A DNA stretch of 24,751 nucleotides from a virus, in IMG/VR virus record IMGVR_UViG_3300044733_001760, positions 1 through 24,751 of that record, one strand, 5' to 3'. Within the stretch, counting starts at the first letter, position 1; each line of letters opens with the position of its first letter. This document shows positions 2,005 through 24,751 of this stretch, in pieces. Made by a program: the position numbers and the translations under genes. Under the pieces are notes generated by a model. The model was not told the origin of the DNA. It saw nothing but the letters and a program-made list of their open reading frames with translations, and made no database searches.

Positions 2005-4694
2005 TGGCAAATCGGTACGCTGTAGGCACCGGCACTTGGGACGGGTCTAACACCGGCATCTGGTCCGCGACGAGCGGCGGTGCGACTGGTGCGAGCGTGC
2101 CCGGCGTAGGTGACGTAGCGTATCTGAATGCGAACAGTGGTGTGATCACGCTAGGCGCGAATGTTACGTGTGCGATCCTAGACCAGACGGGTTTTTCTGG
2201 CACGCTGGATTGGGCTGGATACAAGATTAGCCTAGCGTATAACAACGCGGCGATCTTCGCTGGCTCGACTACCTGCACGAACACCGGCACTCCGCTGATC
2301 GAATGCACCTATTCGGGGAGCGTGGGGCAGCGGACAATCACGACCGGCGCGGTAACTGAGGCCAACGCCATCAGTTTCAACATCACCGCCGGCACGGACG
2401 CTATTAACTCCCTCGCTGTTTGCCGTAATGTTAACTTTACCGGATTTTCCGGCAATCTGGTCAACAGCGCGCGCACCATCTACGGCAGCCCGACATACTC
2501 GCCGACGATGACTGCCACGCCGACCGCAAGTGCCACCACCTTCGCCGCCACCAGCGGAACGCAGGTCATCACGTCGAACGGCGTGACGATGGACTTCCCG
2601 ATCACGGTGAACGCCCCCGGAGCCACAGTCCAACTGGCCGATGCGCTGACCATCGGCAGCACGCGGACGTTCACGCTGACGGCTGGCGGGTTGGACTTGA
2701 ATGGGAAGAACCTGACGGCGGGTCTTTTCGACAGCAGCAACAGCAACGTCCGCAGCATCACATCCGGTGCGGGCCAGTTCTACTGCACATCTACGACGGG
2801 TTACCCATGGGGTGTTAGTACGATCACTAATCTGACCTTTGTTGATCGTGCCACGGTTAATATCACAGGAGCATCCACCGGGGTTGATTCCCGCGTAATC
2901 CAGTGCGGAGCGGTCGCTGAGACTGTATCACCGGACTTCAATATCACGGCTGGCGCTGGAACGGTGACGCTGACGGCGAGCGGCAACGACTCTACGCGCA
3001 ACGTGAGCTTCATAGGCTTCTCTGGCGTGTGCTCAAGGATCGCACGCTCAACCTACGGCAGCGTGACAGCCTCGCCGACTATGACATTCAGCGCCTCGGC
3101 CACCGTCATCAGTTTCCTCGCCACCAGCGGCACGCAAGTCGTCACTACCAACGGCGTCACCCTCGACTTCCCGATCACGGTGAACGCCCCCGGAGCCACA
3201 GTCCAACTGGCCGATGCGCTGACCATCGGCAGCACGCGCTCGTTCACGCTGACGGCTGGCGGGTTGGACCTGAATGGGAAGAACCTGACGGCGGGCGCGT
3301 TCTCGTCCAGCAACGCCAACGTCCGGTCCATCACCAGTGGTGTGGGGCAGTTCTATTGCACAGTGGCGCCATCGTCTGGTACGAGTATCCCGTTCAACGT
3401 TAACGTCACAACCAACCTGACGTTCGTAGACCGCCCGACCATCAACCTCACAGGCAACGGGTCGGGAACCGCCATCCGTCAAATCTATGGGGTCGTTGGC
3501 CAAACAGAGGCATTGGCCCCTGACGTGAATGTGACGGCAGGGACAGACACCGTGGCTGCGCCGGTCACTTCAAATATGCCGATCCGAAACCTAAACTTTA
3601 CCGGGTTCTCGGGCGTGTTATCGAGTGCTGTACGCACCCTATACGGCAACCTGACGCTATCACCAACAATGACTGCGACAGCGACAACCAGTGGCACCAC
3701 TTTCGCCGCCACGAGCGGCACGCAGGTGATCACGTCGAACGGCGTGACGATGGACTTCCCGGTAACGGTCAACGCGCCCGGCGCGACCGTGCAGTTGGCT
3801 GATGCGCTGACGATGGCCGCAGGCCGCAGGCTGACCCTGACGGGTGGCACATTCGACGCCAACAACAAGAACGTCACCTGCGGCAACTACTCGGCAGGCG
3901 GTGGTGCAGTCACCCGTGCGACCCTCATGGGCAGCGGAACGTGGACGATCCTCGATGCAGGCTCGGCATGGGATACGCAAGCTGCGGCCAGCCACACGTT
4001 TACGCCCGGAACTGCCACGATCCTCATGACTGCGGCAACGGCCAAGATTTTCACGAGCGGTGGTAGGACGTACTGGAACCTCAGCAACGGCGGCGCGGGG
4101 TTTATCTCCATCGGCAACGGCGGCAGCACGTTTAACGCTCTGCAAAACACTGTAAGCCCGACAGGCTTCACGCTCCCGGCCAGCACGACCACCACTGTAT
4201 CCGCCTTGAGCCTAGCGGGCACGGCGGGCAATCTGGTGACCCTGCAAAGCAGTTCGGCAGGCACGCGGGCTACCCTAAGTAAGGCCAGCGGGACGGTCGA
4301 TGTTTCGTATCTATCCATAAAAGACAGCGCGGCGACGGGCGGGGCTACGTGGCAGGCAAAGCCGCACAACGGGAACCTGGATGCGGGCAACAACACCGGC
4401 TGGACGTTCCCGTACGACACCGTAGCGGCGGCATCCATGGCCATGACGGCCTATGCGCCCGGCGTGGAAATCAACGTGCCGATGCCGATGGCGGGCATGA
4501 CGCTCACGGCGTTTCTGCCATCGGTTGAGATCGTCATTCCTGCGCCATTGGCGGCAATGACCATGACCGCTTACGCGCCGACTTTTAGCGAAGAATATCT
4601 CGGCTCGCTGGGCGGTGTCGTCCGGGTGCGCCCGGCGCTGTCTGGCGCCATTACAGTTCGGCCCGCGCTGTCCGGCCAGGTCAGCATCAACTAG
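2004..4694 (+). CDS. large repetitive beta-rich structural protein (fibre or head-spike candidate)
   Basis: This 896-residue protein starts with GTG overlapping the previous stop (TAGTG). The N-terminus (YAVGTGTWDGSNTGIW, then SGGATGA) is a motif common at the start of beta-helical surface proteins. The body holds three long repeats of about 191-196 residues. Each has a (N/S)FxGFSG block, then YGxxxxSPTMT, ATSGTQV, DFPxTVNAPGATVQLADALT and LDLNGKN; the DFP blocks begin at residues 197, 388 and 584. Ser, Thr, Gly and Asn dominate and charged residues are rare, which fits a solenoid of short beta strands. The last 90 residues carry short repeats (M-T-x-T-A-Y-A-P and V-R-P-A-L-S-G). No chaperone or peptidase domain is visible. 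A role as head fibre, spike or receptor-binding protein is inferred from composition and position only. Confidence 0.6.
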   Translation: MANRYAVGTGTWDGSNTGIWSATSGGATGASVPGVGDVAYLNANSGVITLGANVTCAILDQTGFSGTLDWAGYKISLAYNNAAIFAGSTTCTNTGTPLIECTYSGSVGQRTITTGAVTEANAISFNITAGTDAINSLAVCRNVNFTGFSGNLVNSARTIYGSPTYSPTMTATPTASATTFAATSGTQVITSNGVTMDFPITVNAPGATVQLADALTIGSTRTFTLTAGGLDLNGKNLTAGLFDSSNSNVRSITSGAGQFYCTSTTGYPWGVSTITNLTFVDRATVNITGASTGVDSRVIQCGAVAETVSPDFNITAGAGTVTLTASGNDSTRNVSFIGFSGVCSRIARSTYGSVTASPTMTFSASATVISFLATSGTQVVTTNGVTLDFPITVNAPGATVQLADALTIGSTRSFTLTAGGLDLNGKNLTAGAFSSSNANVRSITSGVGQFYCTVAPSSGTSIPFNVNVTTNLTFVDRPTINLTGNGSGTAIRQIYGVVGQTEALAPDVNVTAGTDTVAAPVTSNMPIRNLNFTGFSGVLSSAVRTLYGNLTLSPTMTATATTSGTTFAATSGTQVITSNGVTMDFPVTVNAPGATVQLADALTMAAGRRLTLTGGTFDANNKNVTCGNYSAGGGAVTRATLMGSGTWTILDAGSAWDTQAAASHTFTPGTATILMTAATAKIFTSGGRTYWNLSNGGAGFISIGNGGSTFNALQNTVSPTGFTLPASTTTTVSALSLAGTAGNLVTLQSSSAGTRATLSKASGTVDVSYLSIKDSAATGGATWQAKPHNGNLDAGNNTGWTFPYDTVAAASMAMTAYAPGVEINVPMPMAGMTLTAFLPSVEIVIPAPLAAMTMTAYAPTFSEEYLGSLGGVVRVRPALSGAITVRPALSGQVSIN
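2592..3880 (+). repeat. three in-frame direct repeats within the 896-residue protein gene
   Basis: A block starting gacttcccgatcacgg at 2592 recurs at 3165 (period 573 bases) and, more diverged, at 3753 (period 588). Copies 1 and 2 are nearly identical over about 130 bases (2592-2720 and 3165-3293), with only a few mismatches. Copy 3 instead matches copy 1 better just upstream (the ATSGTQVITSNGVTMDFP coding part). This patchwork suggests recombination or gene conversion between units. All periods are multiples of three, so gain or loss of a unit keeps the frame. Confidence 0.85.
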
Positions 4695-5133: not shown

Positions 5134-5460
5134 ATGGCAGCTACCGACGTTCTTTATGTGGGGTCAGACAACCTGATCTCTGTGGAAAACCTGCGCCTTA
5201 CGTCCACTGGTGGCTATCTGACCACGGCCACGGTGACGCTGACAAAGATCGAGGATTCGACCGGCGCAACGGTCAGCGGCTCGACAGGCATCACCTTGTC
5301 CTATTACGGCACGAACGGCGTCTATCACGGCACGCTGCCGGATAGCGTCTCGCTGACTGAAAACGCGGAATACACGGCGGTGATCACGGCGGTCTATTCC
5401 AACCTGACCAAGACATGGCGGCGCACGCTGCGCGCCCGATACGCGAACCAAGGCGAATGA
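5134..5460 (+). CDS. hypothetical phage protein with Ig-like beta pattern
   Basis: The ATG at 5134 (MAATDVLYVGSDN) lies 2 bases after the previous stop and is preferred to the in-frame upstream ATG at 5098, which would overlap that gene. The 108-residue product alternates hydrophobic and polar residues (TTATVTLTKIED, then SYYGTNGVYHGTLPD and EYTAVITAVYSN) like an immunoglobulin-like beta sandwich. Its stop overlaps the next start (ATGA at 5457-5460). The neighbours are structural, so a minor virion or assembly protein is likely; no specific function can be given. Confidence 0.6.
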   Translation: MAATDVLYVGSDNLISVENLRLTSTGGYLTTATVTLTKIEDSTGATVSGSTGITLSYYGTNGVYHGTLPDSVSLTENAEYTAVITAVYSNLTKTWRRTLRARYANQGE

Positions 5461-5768
5461 GCATCTTCACCGCACCGCTCGCGGCCATCTTTGCCGGGCC
5501 GATGGGCGAAACTGCGCGCTATCGCCCGCGTGTGGGCGCGGCGTTCGCCGTCAAGATGATCCCGGTCACGGCCGGCGACAGCGAGATGCAGATCGCGGGG
5601 GCCATGGTGGTGCCGGAACTCATCTACGAGGCCGATGTGGCGCAGTTCGATATTGCACCGCTTGAGCGCGACACCGTGCTTTTTGGCACGACATCCTATT
5701 ACGTCAAGTCGGTCCAGAAGGTTAACGACAACCTTGTTTACCGCCTCTCGCTGGGCACCACCCGATGA
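5457..5768 (+). CDS. putative head-tail connector protein
   Basis: The ATG at 5457 overlaps the previous stop (ATGA) and gives 103 residues. The N-terminus MSIFTAPLAAIFAGPMGE, the central RVGAAFAVKMIP and the final DTVLFGTTSYYVKSVQKVND are of the kind found in small head-tail attachment proteins (lambda FII / neck type), with a beta strand-rich C-terminal half. It is followed, again by an ATGA overlap, by a tail-terminator-like gene, the normal order connector - terminator - tube. Assignment rests on size, order and pattern; a search with structure prediction could change it. Confidence 0.5.
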   Translation: MSIFTAPLAAIFAGPMGETARYRPRVGAAFAVKMIPVTAGDSEMQIAGAMVVPELIYEADVAQFDIAPLERDTVLFGTTSYYVKSVQKVNDNLVYRLSLGTTR

Positions 5769-6438: not shown

Positions 6439-7610
6439 TGGTCGCCTATGTGCGGACACGCCCCCAACAACTTCTGGCCAAGGTGGAAGTCACCGAAGGC
6501 ACCGATGTTACGCCGACGCTTGCCAGCAACGCGGTCAAAATCGAAAACATCAACTGGACGGAGACGCCTAACGTCATCCAGTCCAACGAGCATTCCGGCG
6601 CCCTTGACGTGTCCGCGCCGATTGTCGGCGGCGTCAAGACGACCGTGACCTTCGACGTGTGGGTCAAGGGCCGCTCGACCGGCTCGACCGCTCCCGAATT
6701 GGGCGTGCTGCTCAAAGGCTGCGGCATGGCTGAGACGATCACCTCGACCTCGGTCCCGGCTGCCCCCGAGGCGCTGGCGGCTGGCGGTTCGACCACGACC
6801 GCCGTCCTCGGTGCGTCCGCGACCGGCACCGCCGATCTCTACAACGGGATGCCCATCACGTTCTCCAGCACGGTCGCGGGTGACAGCTTCATCGCCGACT
6901 ACACCGCTGCAAAGCTGGCGACCCTGACCGACACCATGAGCGGCGCGCTGGTCGCCACGTCCAACTATGTCATCCCGATCAACGTGGTCTACCGCTTCGC
7001 ATCATCGTCCATCGCGTCGCTGACCCTGTGGGCCTACCGCGACGGCAAGAAGATGATGGGCGTCGGCTGCCGTGGCACCTACACGATGCAGTGGGTTAAC
7101 GGAGAGGGCATCAAGTTCTCGTTCTCGTTTATGGGCGTCTGGGTGCAGGCCACCGACACGGCGCTGGGCACGGCGACTTACATCGACACCAACAAGATAA
7201 TCTGGCGCGGCACCTCGTCCGCTGTCAGCCGCATGCGCTGGAACCGTATCCTCGCACAGTGCAAGACGCTGAGCTTCGATTGCGGCAACACCGTGATCCA
7301 CCCGGACAACCCGGAAGCCGTCGAAGGCTTCGATCCCGCGCAGATCACGCTGCGCAACGCTTCCGGCTCGTTCGATCCGCTGGAAACCCTGCTGGCCACC
7401 CGCGACATCTTCGCCGACATGCGCGCCAACACCACCCGCATTCTCCATGCGCGTGCTGGCTCGGGTGCTGGTTCGCGTGTCGCTGTCACGGCTGCCAATG
7501 TGCAGGCCACCCAGAACAACCAGGGCGGCGACCGCGACGGGCTTTCCACCGAGGCCGTCAACTTCCGCTGCACCGGCGATAACGACGCTTTCAGCATCTG
7601 CTTCTACTGA
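6438..7610 (+). CDS. tail tube protein
   Basis: This 390-residue protein starts at an ATG sharing a base with the previous stop. It opens with AYVRTRPQQLLAKVEVTEG and TDVTPTLASNAV, a pattern typical of long tail tube proteins of siphoviruses. It continues with NIQSNEHSG-like text (NVIQSNEHSGALDV), FDVWVKGRSTGSTAPELGVL and the characteristic GLxMTxQ-like region (RGTYTMQWVNGEGIKFSFSF). A 60-residue Ala/Thr/Ser-rich insertion in the middle (about residues 110-180) may be a surface domain. It should polymerise into the tail tube around the tape measure. Its 3' end overlaps the antisense antitoxin gene by 7 bases. Confidence 0.75.
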   Translation: MVAYVRTRPQQLLAKVEVTEGTDVTPTLASNAVKIENINWTETPNVIQSNEHSGALDVSAPIVGGVKTTVTFDVWVKGRSTGSTAPELGVLLKGCGMAETITSTSVPAAPEALAAGGSTTTAVLGASATGTADLYNGMPITFSSTVAGDSFIADYTAAKLATLTDTMSGALVATSNYVIPINVVYRFASSSIASLTLWAYRDGKKMMGVGCRGTYTMQWVNGEGIKFSFSFMGVWVQATDTALGTATYIDTNKIIWRGTSSAVSRMRWNRILAQCKTLSFDCGNTVIHPDNPEAVEGFDPAQITLRNASGSFDPLETLLATRDIFADMRANTTRILHARAGSGAGSRVAVTAANVQATQNNQGGDRDGLSTEAVNFRCTGDNDAFSICFY

Positions 7611-7879
7611 GCAGCTACACTCAGCCTTAGCCCGAGAGCCTTTAGCACCTTGGCGACGGTCCCGAACTTGGGGTCGCCATTGAATGCCTTATACAGGCTC
7701 TCGCGGCCAAGGTTGGCGTCCCTGGCGATCTGCGTCATGCCGCGCGCTCGGGCTACTGTGCCCAGCGCGCGGATGAAGAATTCGGGGTCGCCATCTTCAA
7801 GAGCGGCCTCAAGATAGGCGGCGCAATCCTCGTCGTTTTCGAGGTATTCGGCCGCGTCAAACTTGGCGATTTCGATCAT
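7604..7879 (-). CDS. antitoxin of a HigBA-type pair (HI1420 / TIGR02684-like)
   Basis: This 91-residue protein begins at the ATG at 7877-7879, inside an ATGA overlap with the toxin stop; the longer frame from 7948 lies within the toxin gene and is rejected. The N-terminal half (FDAAEYLENDEDCAAYLEAA) and the C-terminal HTH (MTQIARDANLGRESLYKAF, then FGTVAKVLKALGLRLSV) match the 'probable addiction module antidote' family named after H. influenzae HI1420. It should bind and neutralise the toxin and repress the operon through the HTH. It is antisense to the phage late operon, and its 3' end overlaps the tail tube gene by 7 bases. Confidence 0.88.
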   Translation of the reverse strand: MIEIAKFDAAEYLENDEDCAAYLEAALEDGDPEFFIRALGTVARARGMTQIARDANLGRESLYKAFNGDPKFGTVAKVLKALGLRLSVAAQ

Positions 7880-8169
7880 TTCAACTCCTTTGCCATGGCC
7901 TTGGCGTTGCGAATGTCTCGGGCCTGAGATGACTTGTCGCCGCCGCAAAGCATGATCACGACGACCTCGCCTTTCTGGACGAAGTAAAGGCGGTAGCCGG
8001 GGCCGTAGGTAATGCGGATTTCGCCGACACCGTCGCCAACCGACTTCACGTCGCCAAGGTTTCCTTCGGCGGCGCGCTCCAGCCGAACAATGACCCGTGC
8101 CTTTGCCTGACGATCCCGCAGGTTGCGAAGCCAGTCGGAGAATTCAGCGGTGCGGCGGATTTCAAGCAT
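7876..8169 (-). CDS. RelE/HigB-type toxin (HI1419 / TIGR02683-like, phage Gp49-like)
   Basis: This 97-residue protein is the first gene of a two-gene antisense operon. Its pattern (EFSDWLRNLRDRQAKARVIV, then GNLGDVKSVGDGVGEIRI, YGPGYRLYFVQKGE, and LLCGGDKSSQARDI-like text) is that of the 'addiction module killer' family related to HigB/RelE, ribosome-dependent mRNA endonucleases. The conserved basic residues in DRQAKAR and the YGPGYR strand are present, so the toxin looks intact. The toxin gene precedes the antitoxin gene, as is usual for this family. No clear ribosome site is visible before the ATG. It lies between tail tube and chaperone genes and is probably prophage cargo. Confidence 0.88.
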   Translation of the reverse strand: MLEIRRTAEFSDWLRNLRDRQAKARVIVRLERAAEGNLGDVKSVGDGVGEIRITYGPGYRLYFVQKGEVVVIMLCGGDKSSQARDIRNAKAMAKELK

Positions 8170-19309: not shown

Positions 19310-20003
19310 AGCCATCACACGCGGACTACGCAACCACAATCCCGGCAACATCGACCGCGACGGCACGCCGTGGCAGGGCATGGCAGAGGACCAGTCGAGC
19401 GACCCCAGGTTCATCGTGTTCAAGTCCGCGCCGTTCGGCATCCGCGCCATTGCCCGCGTGCTGATCACCTACCAGGACAAGCATGGGCTGGGCACCGTCC
19501 GCAAGATCATCAACCGTTGGGCGCCGCCCGTTGAGAACGACACCGGAGCCTATGTGCAGGCGGTCGCTGCCGCGCTCGGCGTCGAGGCGAACGACATCAT
19601 CGACGTACACGACTTTGAAGTGATGAGGCCGCTGGTCAAAGCCATCATCAAGCACGAAAACGGCGTGCAGCCATACGCGGATTCGGTGATCAATTATGGC
19701 CTGTCGCTGGCAGGCATCACGCCGCAAGTTCAGCCCAAGCCGCTCACCCGGTCCAAGACTGTCATCGGCAGCACGCTTGCAACGGCAGGAACGACCGTGG
19801 GCGCGGTAGTCGATCAGATCCAGCCCGATGACGTGCCGATCTCTCAGGTCGCTCTGGAGGCCGTGCAGGCGTCACAGGAAGCCGTTGGCTACACCATGGG
19901 GCTGTGGGAGTGGGCGGGCATCGTCTGCGCCGTGCTGGCCATCGTCGGGATTGGCATTGTGCTGTGGTCGAAGTATCAGCGCCGACAGAAAGGGCTCGAA
20001 TGA
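19302..20003 (+). CDS. membrane-anchored lysozyme-like endolysin (P5-like)
   Basis: The ATG at 19302 lies behind a strong caggggaggg site and gives 233 residues; the longer frame from 19173 lies inside the preceding gene and is rejected. Residues 7-75 (RGLRNHNPGNIDRDG, then RFIVFKSAPFGIRAIARVL, then TVRKIINRWAPPVEND) match the lysozyme-like / 'structural protein P5' family of phage peptidoglycan hydrolases. The C-terminus has one membrane segment (about residues 202-223) followed by a basic tail. This makes an endolysin fixed in the inner membrane or a virion-associated hydrolase. Catalytic residues cannot be named with confidence. The gene is followed by spanin genes, which supports a lysis role. 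Confidence 0.7.
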   Translation: MTKAITRGLRNHNPGNIDRDGTPWQGMAEDQSSDPRFIVFKSAPFGIRAIARVLITYQDKHGLGTVRKIINRWAPPVENDTGAYVQAVAAALGVEANDIIDVHDFEVMRPLVKAIIKHENGVQPYADSVINYGLSLAGITPQVQPKPLTRSKTVIGSTLATAGTTVGAVVDQIQPDDVPISQVALEAVQASQEAVGYTMGLWEWAGIVCAVLAIVGIGIVLWSKYQRRQKGLE

Positions 20004-20434
20004 TGACCGCAATAGCCGCCATCGCCCTCCGTCTCCTGCTCACCTACTGGCGGCAGCTACTTGCTGGCCTTGGCGTCATAGGGGCGCTCTGGTGGGCCTA
20101 CAGCGCCGTCTATGGCCGGGGCTATGACACGGCGGACAACGAGTGGAAGGCCCGCCAGCAGGCAGCACAGGCCCAAGCAGCGGCAGACACGGCCAAGCTG
20201 CAAGCCTACATCGCCGCCATCGACACCGGCATCACCATCGACATGGAGGCTATATCCAATGTCCGCACCGTTTACCGCGACAAAATTCGCACTGTTGCAC
20301 TTGCTGCCGATCGTCCTGACTGCGTGCTTGTTGATGGGCTGCTCAGCGACATCAATGCCGCCGCTGCGGCCTACGGTGCCGCAGCTACCGGCGCAAGTGG
20401 TGCAAGCGTGCGGCCTGCCAAGCCCGCTCGCTGA
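20000..20434 (+). CDS. Rz-like inner-membrane spanin
   Basis: This 144-residue protein starts at an ATGA overlap with the endolysin stop (a second in-frame ATG follows at once). It has one N-terminal membrane segment (about residues 8-38), then a hydrophilic helical region rich in Gln and Ala (EWKARQQAAQAQAAADTAK) with coiled-coil character, and Arg- and Asp-containing helices. This is the i-spanin layout. The Rz1-like lipoprotein gene is embedded in a different frame at 20259, the typical Rz/Rz1 arrangement. The pair would fuse inner and outer membranes in the last step of lysis. Confidence 0.7.
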   Translation: MMTAIAAIALRLLLTYWRQLLAGLGVIGALWWAYSAVYGRGYDTADNEWKARQQAAQAQAAADTAKLQAYIAAIDTGITIDMEAISNVRTVYRDKIRTVALAADRPDCVLVDGLLSDINAAAAAYGAAATGASGASVRPAKPAR

Positions 20435-20555
20435 CGGCAACGTCTCGACGCTGATCTCAGCGCTGCTGGACGCATGGGAAGGGCAGGCCGTGTGCGAGAT
20501 TCGGCGTGCGGCGGCTGTTAGGGCGTATGAGGCAGCAAGGAGGCTAAACCCATGA
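20259..20555 (+). CDS. Rz1-like outer-membrane spanin lipoprotein
   Basis: This 98-residue protein is encoded in a shifted frame and overlaps the Rz gene from 20259 to 20434. A GGAGG site (20245-20249) precedes the ATG. A signal sequence (FALLHLLPIVLTACLLMGC) ends in a lipobox with C28 (L-M-G-C); C23 in T-A-C is a second possible site. After it come prolines (SMPPLRPTVPQLPAQ) as in Rz1 proteins, then a helical C-terminus longer than in lambda Rz1. It should attach to the outer membrane and bind the Rz-like protein. Confidence 0.72.
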   Translation: MSAPFTATKFALLHLLPIVLTACLLMGCSATSMPPLRPTVPQLPAQVVQACGLPSPLADGNVSTLISALLDAWEGQAVCEIRRAAAVRAYEAARRLNP

Positions 20556-20671: not shown

Positions 20672-20777
20672 TCCGCGCCGCGACCATTGCGCGGTAGATG
20701 TCCGCCTCGTAGCCCTCGATGATTTCGGCGAAGCCGAATTTCCGCCGCGCCTCAAGCCCGGCCTCAAGCATCGCCAT
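20652..20777 (-). CDS. 41-residue hypothetical protein at the end of the leftward operon
   Basis: Read on the minus strand, this 41-residue frame (MAMLEAGLEARRKFGF, then AEIIEGYEADIYRAMVAART) has a helical, charged composition. Its end overlaps the last rightward gene by 20 bases (convergent). No convincing ribosome site is visible; the second ATG (M3) is an alternative start. A 17-base palindrome lies just upstream (20789-20805). Coding status is uncertain. Confidence 0.4.
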   Translation of the reverse strand: MAMLEAGLEARRKFGFAEIIEGYEADIYRAMVAARTKPANR

Positions 20778-20788
20778 CCGCGGCAGTC

Positions 20789-20805
20789 GTCAAGGATTCC
20801 TTGAC
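20789..20805. promoter_or_regulatory. 17-base palindrome, operator candidate
   Basis: GTCAAGGA-T-TCCTTGAC is an 8+1+8 perfect inverted repeat with no gene overlapping it. It lies between the 41-residue gene and the next leftward gene. The tiny centre makes an RNA hairpin unlikely, and the shape fits a dimeric repressor or other regulator binding site. TTGACA at 20801-20806 resembles a -35 box but no matching -10 box is found at 17 bases. Confidence 0.45.
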
Positions 20806-20819
20806 AACTGACTCTGCCA

Positions 20820-21062
20820 CTAGCGCATCGACACGATCACATACCCGGCTTCTGCTAGGGCGCGCTCCACGGCGGCGGCGCACAACGTGTCAAGGTAGGC
20901 TTGGCAGGCTTCCATGCGCCCGATCATAACGATGGTTGTCGGGTATTCGTTGGTTTGCAGCTTGTATTCCGTGAAGTCACCTTGTGGCATGCCGGACCTG
21001 AACATCTCGTATTCATTCCGTTCGGCGTCCCACGCGGCGGCGATGATGGCGGCGGGGGTCAT
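20820..21062 (-). CDS. 80-residue hypothetical protein
   Basis: The start ATG at 21060-21062 overlaps the stop of the upstream gene (ATGA) and has a GGAGGGG site upstream; the longer frame to 21095 overlaps the previous gene and is rejected. The product is helical (TPAAIIAAAWDAERNEYEMF, then MEACQAYLDTLCAAAVERAL) and ends EAGYVIVSMR. It contains two Cys residues. No domain is recognised. It belongs to the leftward block of accessory genes downstream of the integrase. Confidence 0.55.
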   Translation of the reverse strand: MTPAAIIAAAWDAERNEYEMFRSGMPQGDFTEYKLQTNEYPTTIVMIGRMEACQAYLDTLCAAAVERALAEAGYVIVSMR

Positions 21063-21268
21063 GCGTAGCCCCTCCAAATCCCCTCCAGAATCCACTCGTC
21101 ACTTCCCGTAGGAATCATGCCAATGGACCTGCAAATCGCATTGTGCCGATCCACCTTGGCTCCGTGATAGACAGCCCTGACATGACGGACCACAGGTAAG
21201 CGAAAGAACCAATGCGCGGGCCGTACACCCCAACCATTTCGTTCGCCGATAGTTTTCCATTCGCTCAT
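21059..21268 (-). CDS. 69-residue hypothetical protein starting MSEW
   Basis: This small protein has an AGGAG site 7 bases before its ATG. It starts MSEWKTIGERNGW and ends DEWILEGIWRGYA, with a basic, His/Arg-rich centre (RLPVVRHVRAVYHGAKVDRH). The start resembles the two genes upstream, which also begin M(S/T)EW, but the rest does not. No function is known. Confidence 0.5.
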   Translation of the reverse strand: MSEWKTIGERNGWGVRPAHWFFRLPVVRHVRAVYHGAKVDRHNAICRSIGMIPTGSDEWILEGIWRGYA

Positions 21269-21271
21269 TAT

Positions 21272-21511
21272 CTACTCCTGTATGTGAGAGGCGGGAGGGG
21301 GCGGGAGCGGCATCCAGTGGGTCACCAGCGCCGTGTCAAACGGTGCGCCACCGTCAATCATCCACGCACCTTCCGCGATGGCGTCCATGTTCGGTCCCCA
21401 ATACGCAGGCCACGGTAGGCCGTCGGCTTCGTACCAGATCAGTATTGTCGGCCCCAGCATTTTACCGGCATCGTTTTTTGGCGCTGTGTCGATTGTCTGC
21501 CATTCAGTCAT
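21272..21511 (-). CDS. DUF551-like small protein (copy 2)
   Basis: The start ATG at 21509-21511 overlaps the previous stop (ATGA) and has a GGAG site. The 79-residue product starts MTEWQTIDTAPKND and ends with HWMPLPPPP, the ends of the DUF551 family, which is widespread in phages and has no settled function. The middle contains ILIWYEADGLPWPAYWG. It is a likely paralogue of the gene just upstream, which has the same ends. Confidence 0.65.
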   Translation of the reverse strand: MTEWQTIDTAPKNDAGKMLGPTILIWYEADGLPWPAYWGPNMDAIAEGAWMIDGGAPFDTALVTHWMPLPPPPASHIQE

Positions 21512-21753
21512 TGCGGCATCTCCGGTAAGTCCATCCAATGTGAAGCCCAGAACGGTTGACCTGTCACTGATGCGAAAACCCGGCCCTTGCGTTGCTTTGG
21601 GCGAAGCCGGGCAACGATCAAGTGCCGGTCGGGCGTGTGGGCATCATCGCCAAAAATCGCCGCGATAAGTTTTTCCTCTGCCCTCTCTGGCAGGGCAACG
21701 GCGATGAAGTATCGGTCCTTCGCCGCCGTGTCGATCGGCATCCACTCGCTCAT
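21508..21753 (-). CDS. DUF551-like small protein (copy 1)
   Basis: This 81-residue protein has its ATG (21751-21753) after a GGAG site. It begins MSEWMPIDTAAKD and ends SHWMDLPEMPQ, the same ends as the following gene. Its middle (LPERAEEKLIAAIFGDDA) differs. It is the first gene downstream of the integrase region in the leftward direction. The pair looks like a diverged tandem duplication. Confidence 0.6.
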   Translation of the reverse strand: MSEWMPIDTAAKDRYFIAVALPERAEEKLIAAIFGDDAHTPDRHLIVARLRPKQRKGRVFASVTGQPFWASHWMDLPEMPQ

Positions 21754-21919
21754 CCATCAACTCCACTGTGACGCCCGCTCGGGGTGGCAAATCGTGGGTC
21801 TTAACGACCGCATCCGGGTTCCGTGCCCAAATTCGCTGTGTCATTCGTCATTGATTTCATTCGGCTATCAGCATTGACTTGGAATGCAAACGGTTCTGCA
21901 TCAGTTTGATTTAACTAAC
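21754..21919. other. intergenic region next to the integrase, possible attP
   Basis: This 166-base stretch has no convincing gene. It becomes AT-rich toward the integrase stop and contains ATGCA-aacggttc-TGCAT (21884-21901), an inverted repeat of the size of a recombinase core site. Phage attachment sites are often next to int, but no tRNA end or host junction is visible to confirm one. A minus-strand frame from 21844 is not accepted because it runs far into a better gene. Confidence 0.3.
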
Positions 21920-22939
21920 TTATTTCGAGTTTCTGGAATGCGTGCCACTCGGCGTGCCACTTTCCCATTTGTCCATTGCTGCACGCGCCAGCGCCTTGGC
22001 GTCGCGGCCCTTCGCATAGTGCGCGACCACCTCTAGGGTCTGTCCGGTGATGGCCGACACCTGGGCGATGGTGCATCCAGCTTCAAGCATGGCGTTCACC
22101 GCGTTCTTACGCAATCCGTGCCAGTGCCACCTGTCATCCGGCAGCACGCGGTACAGACGGTCCCGCAGCCTCTCAGGCCGCATCTGCTCGCCGTTGGCGT
22201 TGTATATCATCCAGTGGATATGGCGCGGCACCTTGGCCAGTTCCGCCTTCAGGCTGCTGTGCATCGGCACCCACACCGTCTTGTGGGTCTTTTGCTGGAC
22301 AACCTCTATCACGTCGCCATCAACGTGCTTCCACTGCATGTTGCACACGTCGCCGATCCGCTGGCCGGTGTAGAGGTGCAGGATCACGGCGAGCCGCAGC
22401 ATGGGCGAGGCGCGGTCCAGAACGTGCGCGATCAATTTCTCTGGCCATGGCTGGTATTCGCCAATCGGCAATTTCGCCAGCCCCGTAACCGGGTTATATT
22501 GCACCAGGTCCAGATCCACGGCGCAGGCGTATAGCACGGACAGGACCGCCATCATGTTGCGGGAGGCGCCGGGCGTATCGCCCATGCTGTCCCTGATCTG
22601 CTTCAACTTGCCCTTGGTGACGCCAGCGTATGGCTTCCTGCCGTAGTCGTCCTCAATCCTGGCCAGATAGATATTCCGCATCCGCTTCGTGCCCGGCGCG
22701 AGGTTCCGATAGTCCTGCGTGTTCTTGTACAGGCTCACCAGTTCAGCCATGCTGCCGCGCTCTTTGCTGACCGGCGCTTTGTCATTCAACAGCTTCAGGT
22801 AGGCGGCTGCAAACAGCGGGTCATCCGTGCTGTCCGGCAGTCGGATTCGGTCGGTGGTCCGCTTGCCCTTGACGACGCGGGTGCGCCGGAAATAGAGACG
22901 ATCATCAACGCGCTGGACGTATTTCGGCAGGTCTACCAT
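21920..22939 (-). CDS. int: tyrosine recombinase (phage integrase)
   Basis: This 339-residue protein has the ATG at 22937-22939, overlapping the stop of the excisionase-like gene by 7 bases. Residues 1-60 are the DNA arm-binding type, 65-150 the SAM-like core-binding domain (SMAELVSLYKN...), and 165-320 the catalytic domain. The active-site set is R194 (in TGQRIGDV), K217, H274 and R277 (HGLRKNAV) and Y308 (AHYAKGRD). The position usually held by His or Trp in the 'LGH' box is Q300 (ITGQT), an uncommon variant. The enzyme integrates and, with the excisionase-like protein, excises the phage. The C-terminus is Ser/Gly/Thr-rich. Confidence 0.9.
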   Translation of the reverse strand: MVDLPKYVQRVDDRLYFRRTRVVKGKRTTDRIRLPDSTDDPLFAAAYLKLLNDKAPVSKERGSMAELVSLYKNTQDYRNLAPGTKRMRNIYLARIEDDYGRKPYAGVTKGKLKQIRDSMGDTPGASRNMMAVLSVLYACAVDLDLVQYNPVTGLAKLPIGEYQPWPEKLIAHVLDRASPMLRLAVILHLYTGQRIGDVCNMQWKHVDGDVIEVVQQKTHKTVWVPMHSSLKAELAKVPRHIHWMIYNANGEQMRPERLRDRLYRVLPDDRWHWHGLRKNAVNAMLEAGCTIAQVSAITGQTLEVVAHYAKGRDAKALARAAMDKWESGTPSGTHSRNSK

Positions 22940-23163
22940 GGCTCAAGCCCCGGGTTTTCGGTCGCCAATCCTGACCACGCATCAACCCACTGGTCCAGCA
23001 CTACCTTGTCCCAGAACACGTTACCACCATCCTTCTTGCCCGCCGGATACACGCCCTTGCGGACCATCTCGCCGAACTTCGTCTCGCTCACGCTCAGGTA
23101 ATCAGCGGCCATCGGCGCCTTCATGCGTCGCGGCCAATGCGGGAATACCTGGCGCTCGCCCAT
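22933..23163 (-). CDS. excisionase / AlpA-like HTH protein
   Basis: This 76-residue protein starts at the ATG at 23161-23163, which overlaps the stop of the next gene (TGATG); an in-frame GTG one codon upstream is the alternative. The middle, MKAPMAADYLSVSETKFGEM followed by VRKGVYPAG and VFWDKVVLDQWVDAW, has the winged HTH_17/AlpA pattern. Such proteins bend DNA at attachment sites or switch on int. Its overlap with the integrase gene strongly supports a role in excision or control of integration. Confidence 0.75.
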   Translation of the reverse strand: MGERQVFPHWPRRMKAPMAADYLSVSETKFGEMVRKGVYPAGKKDGGNVFWDKVVLDQWVDAWSGLATENPGLEPW

Positions 23164-23423
23164 CACTCACCCCGCGCTGTGTGGGCCATCAGGGCAGCGC
23201 GGATTTGGGCAAGAATGGCATTCCCGGACCCTGTTCCGTCGAACTTGTCGTGCAGATATTCGATTTGCAGCCCGGCACCTTCCAGCGCCGCAGTCAACAT
23301 TTCGACCTGTGCGCGCAGGGCCGCGATCTCGGCGCGGGCGGTGGCGAGTTCGTCGTGTTCGGTGCACTTCGGGCAGCTTGTGTCGCCGGCTGCTGCAAAA
23401 CCGTGCGGGCAGAAAAAGATCAT
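23163..23423 (-). CDS. zinc-finger-like coiled-coil protein
   Basis: The ATG at 23421-23423 (MIFFCPHGF) overlaps the stop of the preceding 35-residue gene (ATGA at 23420-23423); the in-frame GTG at 23432 would only overlap further. The 86-residue product has C-P-H-G at the start and C-P-K-C near residue 17-20, a likely Zn site, followed by a coiled-coil helix (ELATARAEIAALRAQVEML). Function unknown; small Zn-binding proteins with coiled coils are common in phage early operons. Confidence 0.6.
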   Translation of the reverse strand: MIFFCPHGFAAAGDTSCPKCTEHDELATARAEIAALRAQVEMLTAALEGAGLQIEYLHDKFDGTGSGNAILAQIRAALMAHTARGE

Positions 23424-23527
23424 CGTTCCCACTCCCTATACCGCTCGCGGGCCTGCCTCGCCCATTCGCGCAGCATCTCGGCTTGGCGCTCGGGCGTGGC
23501 GCGGGCGTATTCGGTGAGCGGCTTCAT
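23420..23527 (-). CDS. 35-residue basic helical microprotein
   Basis: This gene encodes MKPLTEYARATPERQAEM followed by LREWARQARERYREWER. Its start overlaps the stop of the 25-residue membrane peptide gene (ATGA), and its stop overlaps the next start (ATGA). It is rich in Arg and Glu, and probably one amphipathic helix. The two tight overlaps are the main support. The function is unknown. Confidence 0.5.
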   Translation of the reverse strand: MKPLTEYARATPERQAEMLREWARQARERYREWER

Positions 23528-23601
23528 GCCAGCCACCACACGGCAGCCCACCCAGCGGCGCTAAGGCCAAGGACGGCCGAGAAGCGCTGAAACGGGCTCA
23601 T
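23524..23601 (-). CDS. 25-residue single-span membrane peptide
   Basis: The start ATG at 23599-23601 and the stop TGA at 23524-23526 both lie in ATGA overlaps with the neighbouring genes. The peptide (MSPFQRFSAVLGLSAAGW, then AAVWWLA) is almost entirely hydrophobic. Despite the tiny size, the frame is framed by genes on both sides, which makes chance less likely. It could be a membrane microprotein acting on the host or on superinfection. Confidence 0.45.
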   Translation of the reverse strand: MSPFQRFSAVLGLSAAGWAAVWWLA

Positions 23602-23840
23602 GGCCGCGTCTCCATCCGCAGCAGCCGCTCAACGGTGAGCCGCTTGGCGTGCCGCAGCAGGCCAGCCACTTCCAGCATGACGCCCACGCCTTCCTTGGCC
23701 AGACTGTCAGCCACCAGGATCGCGTCGTCGCACTCGCCCTCGAGCCGGATCAGGTCATCGACCGTCTCGGCGTCCCGCTCGCGCTCACGTTCGCGCTCGG
23801 CGCGTGTCAGGGTGTCGTCGTGGGTGAGGATGCGGTTCAT
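23598..23840 (-). CDS. 80-residue hypothetical protein with an Arg-Glu repeat
   Basis: The ATG at 23838-23840 overlaps the preceding zinc-ribbon stop (ATGA); the longer frame to 23930 overlaps that gene and is not preferred. The N-terminus is MNRILTHDDTLTRAERERER, with a run of alternating Arg and Glu, then an acidic stretch (ETVDDLIRLEGECDDAILVA) and a helical end. No known domain. It is part of the same overlapping chain. Confidence 0.55.
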   Translation of the reverse strand: MNRILTHDDTLTRAERERERERDAETVDDLIRLEGECDDAILVADSLAKEGVGVMLEVAGLLRHAKRLTVERLLRMETRP

Positions 23841-24016
23841 GCCCGTTTCTCCAGTGCCGCCCCACGCCGCAGGCGGATCAGCCGGCGCTTTGCCTGGATG
23901 GAGGGGTACCGCGGGTGCGGCTCGCCGCACTTGTGGCAGACCGGCTCGACGCGCAGGACCGCGCCGCAGGCGTCACATTCCGGCCGGGGGCTGTGTAGCT
24001 GTATCTGGTCAAGCAT
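23837..24016 (-). CDS. 59-residue zinc-ribbon protein
   Basis: This product starts MLDQIQLHSPRPECDACG and has two Cys pairs, C14-D-A-C17 and C27-H-K-C30, the pattern of a rubredoxin-like zinc ribbon, followed by a basic tail (QAKRRLIRLRRGAAL). It overlaps the preceding gene by 8 bases and the following start by 4 (ATGA). It is probably a nucleic-acid or protein-binding regulator. No experimental function can be stated. Confidence 0.6.
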   Translation of the reverse strand: MLDQIQLHSPRPECDACGAVLRVEPVCHKCGEPHPRYPSIQAKRRLIRLRRGAALEKRA

Positions 24017-24104
24017 GTGAGACTCCGATGAACAGCAGCCCCATGGCTGCCAGGAACGTCAGAAGGGCAAAGAACGCGCCCACATCAGCGAGCCAGTTCC
24101 TCAT
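24009..24104 (-). CDS. 31-residue single-span membrane peptide
   Basis: This peptide (MRNWLADVGAFFALLTFL, then AAMGLLFIGVSHA) is one hydrophobic segment after a short polar start. Its ATG overlaps the stop of the preceding gene (TGATG) and its stop lies inside the following zinc-ribbon gene start. It is the second membrane peptide in this operon. Translation is inferred only from overlap and composition. Confidence 0.45.
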   Translation of the reverse strand: MRNWLADVGAFFALLTFLAAMGLLFIGVSHA

Positions 24105-24295
24105 CACGCACCTTCCTTCGTGTTCGGCGACCAGTTCCGGCCACCAGCGGCAGCCAGATCACGGCGGCGGCGCATCACGTCGATGTCCACGATCTTGGCG
24201 TCGTAAAATCGGGCGCGGGCCTCGACCATGGCGGCGAACGCCTCGCGCACGTCGCAGGGTGTCTCGGTGTCACATGGCCTGAGATCGTCGCTCAT
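24104..24295 (-). CDS. 63-residue hypothetical protein
   Basis: The ATG at 24293-24295 overlaps the stop of the first gene of the operon (ATGA). The product starts MSDDLRPCDTETPCDVREAF, with C8 and C14, then a helix (AMVEARARFYDAKIVDID) and a basic region (VMRRRRDLAAAGG). No known domain. The two Cys residues could be structural but no second pair is present. Confidence 0.5.
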   Translation of the reverse strand: MSDDLRPCDTETPCDVREAFAAMVEARARFYDAKIVDIDVMRRRRDLAAAGGRNWSPNTKEGA

Positions 24296-24492
24296 CGCGC
24301 CAGCCCTTCCAGATACGCATCCACAGCGGCCACTGACGGGAACTGCATGGCGGCAACATCAACGCGGATCAGGACAGCGCCGAACTGGTTGCGCTCGACC
24401 GAGAACCGGGTCTGGCGGTCGGTGTGCGACGGCTTGATGCGACGGCTGGGCGGATAGGGCGGGTGGATCGTGGCGGGGGCTGATTGGCCCAT
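24292..24492 (-). CDS. 66-residue hypothetical protein, first gene of the leftward operon
   Basis: The ATG at 24490-24492 lies 8 bases after a GGAG site and about 30 bases after the predicted transcription start; the longer frame to 24621 would run through the promoter and is rejected. The product starts MGQSAPATIHPPYPPSRR and is basic, with a C-terminal segment (VAAMQFPSVAAVDAYLEGLA). No known domain. As first gene it may be the most strongly expressed. Confidence 0.55.
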   Translation of the reverse strand: MGQSAPATIHPPYPPSRRIKPSHTDRQTRFSVERNQFGAVLIRVDVAAMQFPSVAAVDAYLEGLAR

Positions 24493-24528
24493 TGGTATGC
24501 TCCATGGCTGTGTGTGCCGGTGGAGATT

Positions 24529-24557
24529 AATATATCCACTGTGTGTGGATGGTTCAA
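24529..24557 (-). promoter_or_regulatory. leftward promoter with operator in the spacer
   Basis: On the minus strand, TTGAAC (-35, plus-strand 24552-24557) and TATATT (-10, 24529-24534) are separated by exactly 17 bases. An inverted repeat ATCCAC-ACACA-GTGGAT (24534-24550) fills the spacer. A repressor bound there would block RNA polymerase, so this is the likely controlled promoter of the int/xis operon. The bound regulator is not in the window. Confidence 0.6.
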
Positions 24558-24685
24558 GCATAAACGTCACGATGCGTGGTGAAATAACATTTTGTTGATC
24601 GCGGCAGATCGTTGCCGACACCCCGCAACCGTGGATAAATCGCAGCCCGCGAGCGGGGATGCCGCGCGTTTTGTTTGAATATGGA

Positions 24686-24705
24686 TTTAAAACTTATGTT
24701 TTAAA
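24686..24705. promoter_or_regulatory. AT-rich inverted repeat
   Basis: TTTAAAAC-TTAT-GTTTTAAA has perfect 8-bp arms and stands in an AT-rich stretch within otherwise GC-rich DNA. It may be a second operator, part of a rightward promoter (a weak TTGTTT / TATGTT pair with 18-base spacing surrounds it at 24671-24701), or a replication or termination element. Nothing in the window decides between these. Confidence 0.35.
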
Positions 24706-24718
24706 AAATTGCGCTTGC

Positions 24719-24733
24719 GGGGGGGGGGGGGGG
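24719..24733. repeat. 15-base G run near the window end
   Basis: Fifteen G residues in a row, 18 bases before the end of the window and next to AT-rich sequence. It may be a true homopolymer, a phase-variable tract, or a sequencing or assembly artefact at a contig end. No gene is placed across it. Confidence 0.7.
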
Positions 24734-24751
24734 TAGGGTTACCTAGAAGTA

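Follow-up and report, generated by a model that had tools for sequence, protein, structure and literature searches.

The exo-xis region of lambda and Stx phages (orf60a, orf63, orf61, orf73, ea22 and variable genes) is a set of small early genes lying directly before xis. The excerpted text of PMC8614690 describes the lambda genes as early, small, located just before xis and among the earliest expressed from pL, and states that they are confirmed by ribosome profiling. These genes shift the choice between lysis and lysogeny according to excerpts of PMC8614690 and PMC3824215 and, for Orf63, of PMC10869804, and a partial text of PMC11323111 reports that Orf73 binds RNA polymerase. Their products are short and consist of a single domain, and one of them carries a C4 zinc motif.

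We analysed IMG/VR virus record IMGVR_UViG_3300044733_001760 over its full length of 24,751 bases (hereafter the window), in which eight small leftward ORFs, named A to H, precede xis and int. As in lambda and the Stx phages, the small genes form a cluster directly ahead of xis, share the strand of this gene and int, and encode short single-domain products, one with a C4 zinc-type motif. In contrast to lambda, no exo is located between the promoter-like site and A, where the operon seems to begin, profiles of Pfam, PHROG and NCBIfam detect no homologue of Orf60a, Orf63, Orf61, Orf73 or Ea22 among A-H, and each gene overlaps the next throughout. Because a bordering exo and a shared family are both absent, we do not file the operon as an exo-xis region. 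We consider it probable that A-H belong to a temperate tailed phage, as a single leftward early operon that ends in xis-int and works in a manner similar to lambda exo-xis.

Layout of the gene chain

The eight ORFs are all on the minus strand and tile positions 24492-23163 of the window, followed by xis and then by int. In order of reading, they are A (24292..24492, 66 amino acids (aa)), B (24104..24295, 63 aa), C (24009..24104, 31 aa), D (23837..24016, 59 aa), E (23598..23840, 80 aa), F (23524..23601, 25 aa), G (23420..23527, 35 aa) and H (23163..23423, 86 aa), and they run on the same strand into the excisionase-like xis (22933..23163, 76 aa) and the tyrosine integrase int (21920..22939, 339 aa). 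The successive overlaps from A through H and xis to int are 4, 1, 8, 4, 4, 4, 4, 1 and 7 nucleotides (nt), and the ORFs cover the 1560 bp of the A-xis span completely. The sequence at the eight junctions from A to xis is ATGA in five, TGATG in two and ATGCTTGA in one. At all eight, the start/stop spacing is -4, -1 or -8, the classes given as enriched among overlapping gene pairs in the excerpt of PMC12548453, which places the highest coupling efficiency between -4 and +3 nt; the spacing between xis and int is -7. An alternative ATG upstream and in frame would extend A to 89 aa, and this form would overlap the promoter-like site described below.

The original prediction reported eight leftward small ORFs overlapping each other at 23163-24492. 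Both coordinates and strand are right, and the chain extends further into xis and int. The products of 25, 31, 35 and 59 residues that it singled out are present in the ORF listing as F, C, G and D, respectively, and the chain includes sizes that are dropped by the usual length limits. The observation of a coupled chain of eight ORFs is confirmed.

Chance occurrence, ribosome-binding sites and codon usage

It had been argued that the repeated coupling makes chance unlikely, and the counts bear this out. With chains defined by ATG starts, products of at least 20 aa and overlaps of 1-8 nt, the A-xis span contains a chain of 9, and no chain longer than 5 arose when the same span was shuffled 1000 times with its dinucleotides preserved. 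Chains of 4 or 5 were reached by 35 of the 1000, indicating that short ORFs do chain by chance and that a lone short ORF is therefore weaker evidence than the whole chain. When both strands of the whole window were scored, the chain was 10 including int and the shuffles gave at most 6 (2 of 60). If only overlaps of 1 and 4 are allowed, the observed chain is reduced to 6, compared with at most 5 in the span shuffles, and 6 was also reached by one of the 60 whole-window shuffles over both strands. These shuffle tests rule out chance as the source of the overlaps.

The Shine-Dalgarno score was calculated as the pairing of the bases 4-18 nt before the start with the 16S rRNA end. Its mean was -6.3 kcal/mol for the starts of A-H and -1.85 kcal/mol for 763 other ATGs, and none of 20,000 random draws of eight ATGs matched the mean of A-H. 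D and F have sites whose strength is matched at about 4% of other ATGs, and the weakest of the eight, that of G, is equalled by 16%. For most starts, the Shine-Dalgarno sequence is located within the preceding gene. From this arrangement and the stop/start overlap at every junction, we infer that ribosomes finishing one frame would most likely re-initiate on the next.

A codon-usage model was trained on 5497 codons from 13 longer window ORFs, and 97 spurious ORFs inside long genes served as the control, with a 95% quantile of 0.11 bits/codon. The own frame scored best of six for seven of the eight genes, the exception being D, where it came second. Scores of A (0.15), B (0.18), C (0.27), E (0.44) and H (0.16 bits/codon) exceeded the quantile, while F (0.10, p 0.014) and G (0.06, p 0.03) were below it and marginal, and the score of D (-0.17) gave no support for D as a coding sequence. 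On sequence alone, A, B, C, E and H are well supported. For D, F and G, support comes mainly from the position that each occupies within the chain, together with the Shine-Dalgarno sequence in the case of D and F.

This division of the genes raises the alternative that selection at the protein level acts only on the larger ORFs A, B, C, E and H, and that D, F and G are short frames maintained chiefly to pass ribosomes and start/stop seams along the chain, or recent insertions that have no function as yet. The codon usage is in line with it, being unsupportive for D and within the range of spurious ORFs for F and G, as are the weakest Shine-Dalgarno sequence at G, the lack of any relative found for D, F or G and the lack of a match to these three at the C-E locus of the second phage described below. 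A spacer, however, would need neither the two CxxC pairs of D nor the hydrophobicity of F over its whole length, and the Shine-Dalgarno strength of D and F is rare among other ATGs. Weighing these points, we regard this alternative as unlikely. Taken together, the chain statistics, the Shine-Dalgarno scores, the codon usage of five genes and the synonymous-biased change in C and E uphold the view that these are real coupled small genes. The chain would thus add to the cases in which overlapping ORFs, here of 25-90 codons and in a probable early operon of a phage, behave like real genes.

Predicted products of A-H

Judged by searches of PHROGs, Pfam, NCBIfam and PADLOC, which reach relatives detectable by profiles, A-H match no known family: no family was accepted for any of them, and the best PHROG match was that of H (E-value 0.013). 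No convincing match came from sequence searches of the PDB with E, D, H and xis.

Two of the products had been described as single membrane spans. The maximum of the Kyte-Doolittle score over 19 residues is 2.45 for C, where the single span is clear, and 1.49 for F, which is only a probable membrane peptide. The claim of a zinc ribbon in the chain was likewise borne out in part, because D contains CxxC-x9-CxxC, recognized by eye and followed by a basic tail, but its best zinc-ribbon match in Pfam (E-value 0.013, 16.1 bits) falls below the cut-off of 27.3 bits. Given the cysteine pattern, D is likely to bind zinc. In its four cysteines arranged in two pairs and its class of genomic position, D is similar to lambda Orf73 and other proteins of the TraR/DksA type. 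It differs from them in having no TraR/DksA match in Pfam at E-values up to 1 and no DxxDxA start, which is given as the hallmark of these proteins in the excerpt of PMC8614690, and D as a TraR/DksA protein was rejected on these grounds.

The model of E, calculated with two sequences as input, is a helical hairpin (pLDDT 88.4, pTM 0.68), and fold searches with it returned no match at E-values up to 0.001 in either of two libraries. The model of H, from a single sequence, is weak (pLDDT 73) and predicts a long helix after the cysteine-rich start with CPHG and CPKC. G appears to be a charged helical peptide.

Searches for relatives

Within the databases and loci compared, no convincing relative was found for A, B, D, F, G or H. 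In the phages database, blastn detected no relative of A-H, tblastn with nine joined proteins gave two weak matches only, both in the xis part, and searches with the C-E DNA of the second phage and with its form of E found none. In viral_contigs, the joined query identified no relative of A-H in what is a weak test, as three of six peptide patterns crossed artificial joints, and IMG/VR scans with H, xis and B found no relative. A, D, F and G were compared with the integrase loci and other loci already retrieved; their few matches, at E-values of 0.003-0.1, were chance-like. A match of G lies within the integrase gene of its locus (L054) and one of B on the strand opposite to the integrase (L064), and both were rejected.

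Among the Sphingomonadales, H matched 11 of 396 genomes at E-values up to 0.01 and the alignment of E matched 6 of 296. Nine of the 11 H matches are in open frames of at least 386 aa, and another (L080) has neighbouring ORFs that look chromosomal by eye; by our judgement these, the H match in L086 and the six matches of the E alignment are due to chance. Locus L003, with an exonuclease-like protein at 71% identity, showed no significant match to the window integrase or to A-H.

The C-E pair in a second phage

The sole IMG/VR contig that matched E, IMGVR_UViG_3300017716_001537 (L074), was also found with C. The homologue of C is at 4210-4302 of this contig and shares 67% aa identity with C of the window. 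It is joined immediately to E by an ATGA overlap, and D is absent between them. Over 74 aligned codons of E, there are 23 nt differences, with 15 codons changed synonymously and 7 nonsynonymously (dN 0.044, dS 0.34). Over 29 codons of C, there are 37 differences, with 12 synonymous and 10 nonsynonymous codons, the latter including the start codon; dN is 0.30 and dS is saturated and not computable by the method. Third codon positions account for 15 of the 23 differences in E (p 0.002) and for 20 of the 37 in C (p 0.007). Because change is biased toward synonymous codons and third positions, C and E are kept as proteins, under purifying selection. Frames disrupted in relatives would have counted against the original prediction; for C and E, the two genes covered by this comparison, both frames are intact in L074.

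The two genes have diverged to very different extents, with nt identities of 57% for C and 90% for E. The sole blastn match between the window and L074 is 23609-23825, inside E, and in the global alignment the similarity of E ends just before F, at the GGAG that serves this gene. Since C and E diverged so differently, the simplest account would be a recombination boundary between them, at the position occupied by D in the window.

In the 10.5 kb of L074 compared, none of D, F, G, H, xis and int was found. The phage module around the pair differs from the xis-int setting of the window, as C-E of L074 precedes genes assigned by PHROGs to an exonuclease, a nucleotidyltransferase-like protein, a Tgt-like protein and a DNA polymerase. 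Before C-E, at 2289-2570, 3639-3797 and 3855-4217 of L074, there are ORFs that consist nearly entirely of Ala/Asp/Arg/Tyr repeats (e.g. AARDAAYDA).

That C and E are the only genes common to L074, adjacent and coupled by ATGA despite the differing module, raises the alternative that they are a specific mobile unit of two parts, in which a membrane peptide is coupled to a helical partner in the cytosol and to which the rest of the chain is accessory. The confident helical hairpin of the E model would suit such a partner, and by its title a 2023 paper holds that the products of coupled pairs are frequently subunits of a single complex. Yet the identities of 57% and 90% are so unequal that the two genes did not move together as a unit in recent times, D lies between the two genes in the window, and PADLOC gave no match. 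We take such a unit, for instance a toxin-antitoxin or a host-inhibiting pair moving between phages, to be quite unlikely.

It is possible, if doubtful, that the chain is instead made of one-gene cassettes exchanged singly between phages at the start/stop seams. The end of each microgene would then carry the ribosome-binding site and the overlap for the next gene, so that phages could insert a unit, as with D between C and E, or substitute one, as with E, and leave the coupling intact. This reading draws on one comparison, that of the window with L074. If it is true, early phage operons might be viewed as strings of interchangeable small effectors that can be searched for by their ATGA seams. 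The C-E pair offers a concrete case to test.

xis, integrase and sphingomonad loci

The best match of xis is PHROG 25900, annotated as 'transcriptional regulator' (E-value 2e-9), and PHROG 66, an excisionase, matches with an E-value of 0.0014; matches to Pfam HTH_17 and NCBIfam TIGR01764 are below cut-off, and the gene lies beside int. The integrase matches PF00589 with 47.6 bits (cut-off 27.1) and PHROG 1 with an E-value of 3e-35. Its relatives are found in 35 phage records, all below 60% identity (Rhizobium 10, Pseudanabaena 4, Paracoccus 3 and others), in 28 plasmid records and, at E-values up to 1e-20, in 27 of 396 genomes of Sphingomonadales, where the best match is 38% identical. In 19 of 30 retrieved loci, an xis-like sequence (E-value up to 0.05) is beside the integrase.

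Coupled chains were counted at 20 sphingomonad integrase matches from 18 genomes, using ATG starts and overlaps of 1, 4 or 8. Chains of at least 5 upstream of the integrase were found on the same strand in 9 of the 20 loci versus 1 of 20 on the opposite strand, a count made without a shuffle control, and in 5 of the 20 a chain of this length ended within 350 nt of the integrase match. The other 11 loci had chains of 4 or fewer. The sphingomonad prophage operons resemble the window in having coupled small genes before a related xis-int, some of them encoding small Cys-rich proteins, but differ from it in gene content, which is not homologous to A-H. Because relatives of the integrase have coupled chains upstream of them in roughly half of these sphingomonad loci, the layout of coupled small genes before xis-int is, on this genomic comparison, ordinary.

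Promoter-like site and expression

A promoter-like site, TTGAAC-17-TATATT, is located at 24529..24557 on the minus strand, 36 nt before the start of A. It is the only sigma-70-like match in 20700-24751; shuffles of the sequence average 1.1 such sites, so that it is only the position that speaks for it as a promoter. The spacer contains the perfect palindrome ATCCAC-acaca-GTGGAT (24534..24550, minus strand), a possible repressor operator. The palindrome was noticed first and counted after, and 0.91 such sites are expected in the window when two mismatches are allowed. An inverted copy resembling a half-site is found at 24628-24640. No long ORF is present in 24493-24751; the window contains no tRNA, and its part 21500-24751 gave no Rfam match. 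About 190 nt past the promoter-like site the record stops, before any repressor gene. Just before this end, near 24720-24735, there is a run of about 15 C on the minus strand, which is perhaps the point where the assembly broke.

From this layout, a transcript would start from the promoter-like site (24557-24529) and pass through A-H, xis and int. Repression at the spacer palindrome would probably keep the promoter shut off in the lysogen, and the combination of one palindrome-bearing promoter-like site with an operon ending in xis-int suggests that the operon is silent in the lysogen. The small proteins would then be made at infection or induction along with the excision machinery, and by analogy with lambda exo-xis the Cys-rich, helical and membrane proteins may adjust host physiology and the choice between lysis and lysogeny.

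A different role, that of superinfection-exclusion or immunity peptides made by the prophage, could be proposed for C and F; the original prediction had pointed to single membrane spans as a form often taken by exclusion or anti-host peptides of phages. Phages are known to encode small membrane proteins of this kind, and C has a strong single span and F a probable one. On the other hand, neither C nor F has a family match in PHROGs, Pfam, NCBIfam or PADLOC. Prophage exclusion proteins are as a rule produced in the lysogen, and the ending of the chain in xis-int and the palindrome-bearing promoter-like site suggest expression at induction or infection instead. This role is therefore not favoured and seems very unlikely. 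An anti-host role of peptides of the chain early in infection is possible.

Other features of the window

The tail and lysis genes of the window are on the plus strand. A toxin-antitoxin pair at 7604-8169 is on the minus strand, opposed to the surrounding plus-strand structural genes, and matches Gp49/DUF891 (30.9 bits, cut-off 23.9) and an addiction-module antidote protein (109 bits). At 19904-20555 on the plus strand, an ORF of 176 aa is overlapped in another frame by one of 147 aa with a lipoprotein-like stretch, an Rz/Rz1-like arrangement; the 147-aa ORF has a sub-threshold match to the Rz1-like LysC (19.5 bits, cut-off 27). After int, at 21272-21753 on the minus strand, two adjoining small ORFs have similar starts (EWxxIDTA), one of them matching DUF551 and the other being without a Pfam match, and an ORF similar to these two is present at 5381-5572 of locus L003.
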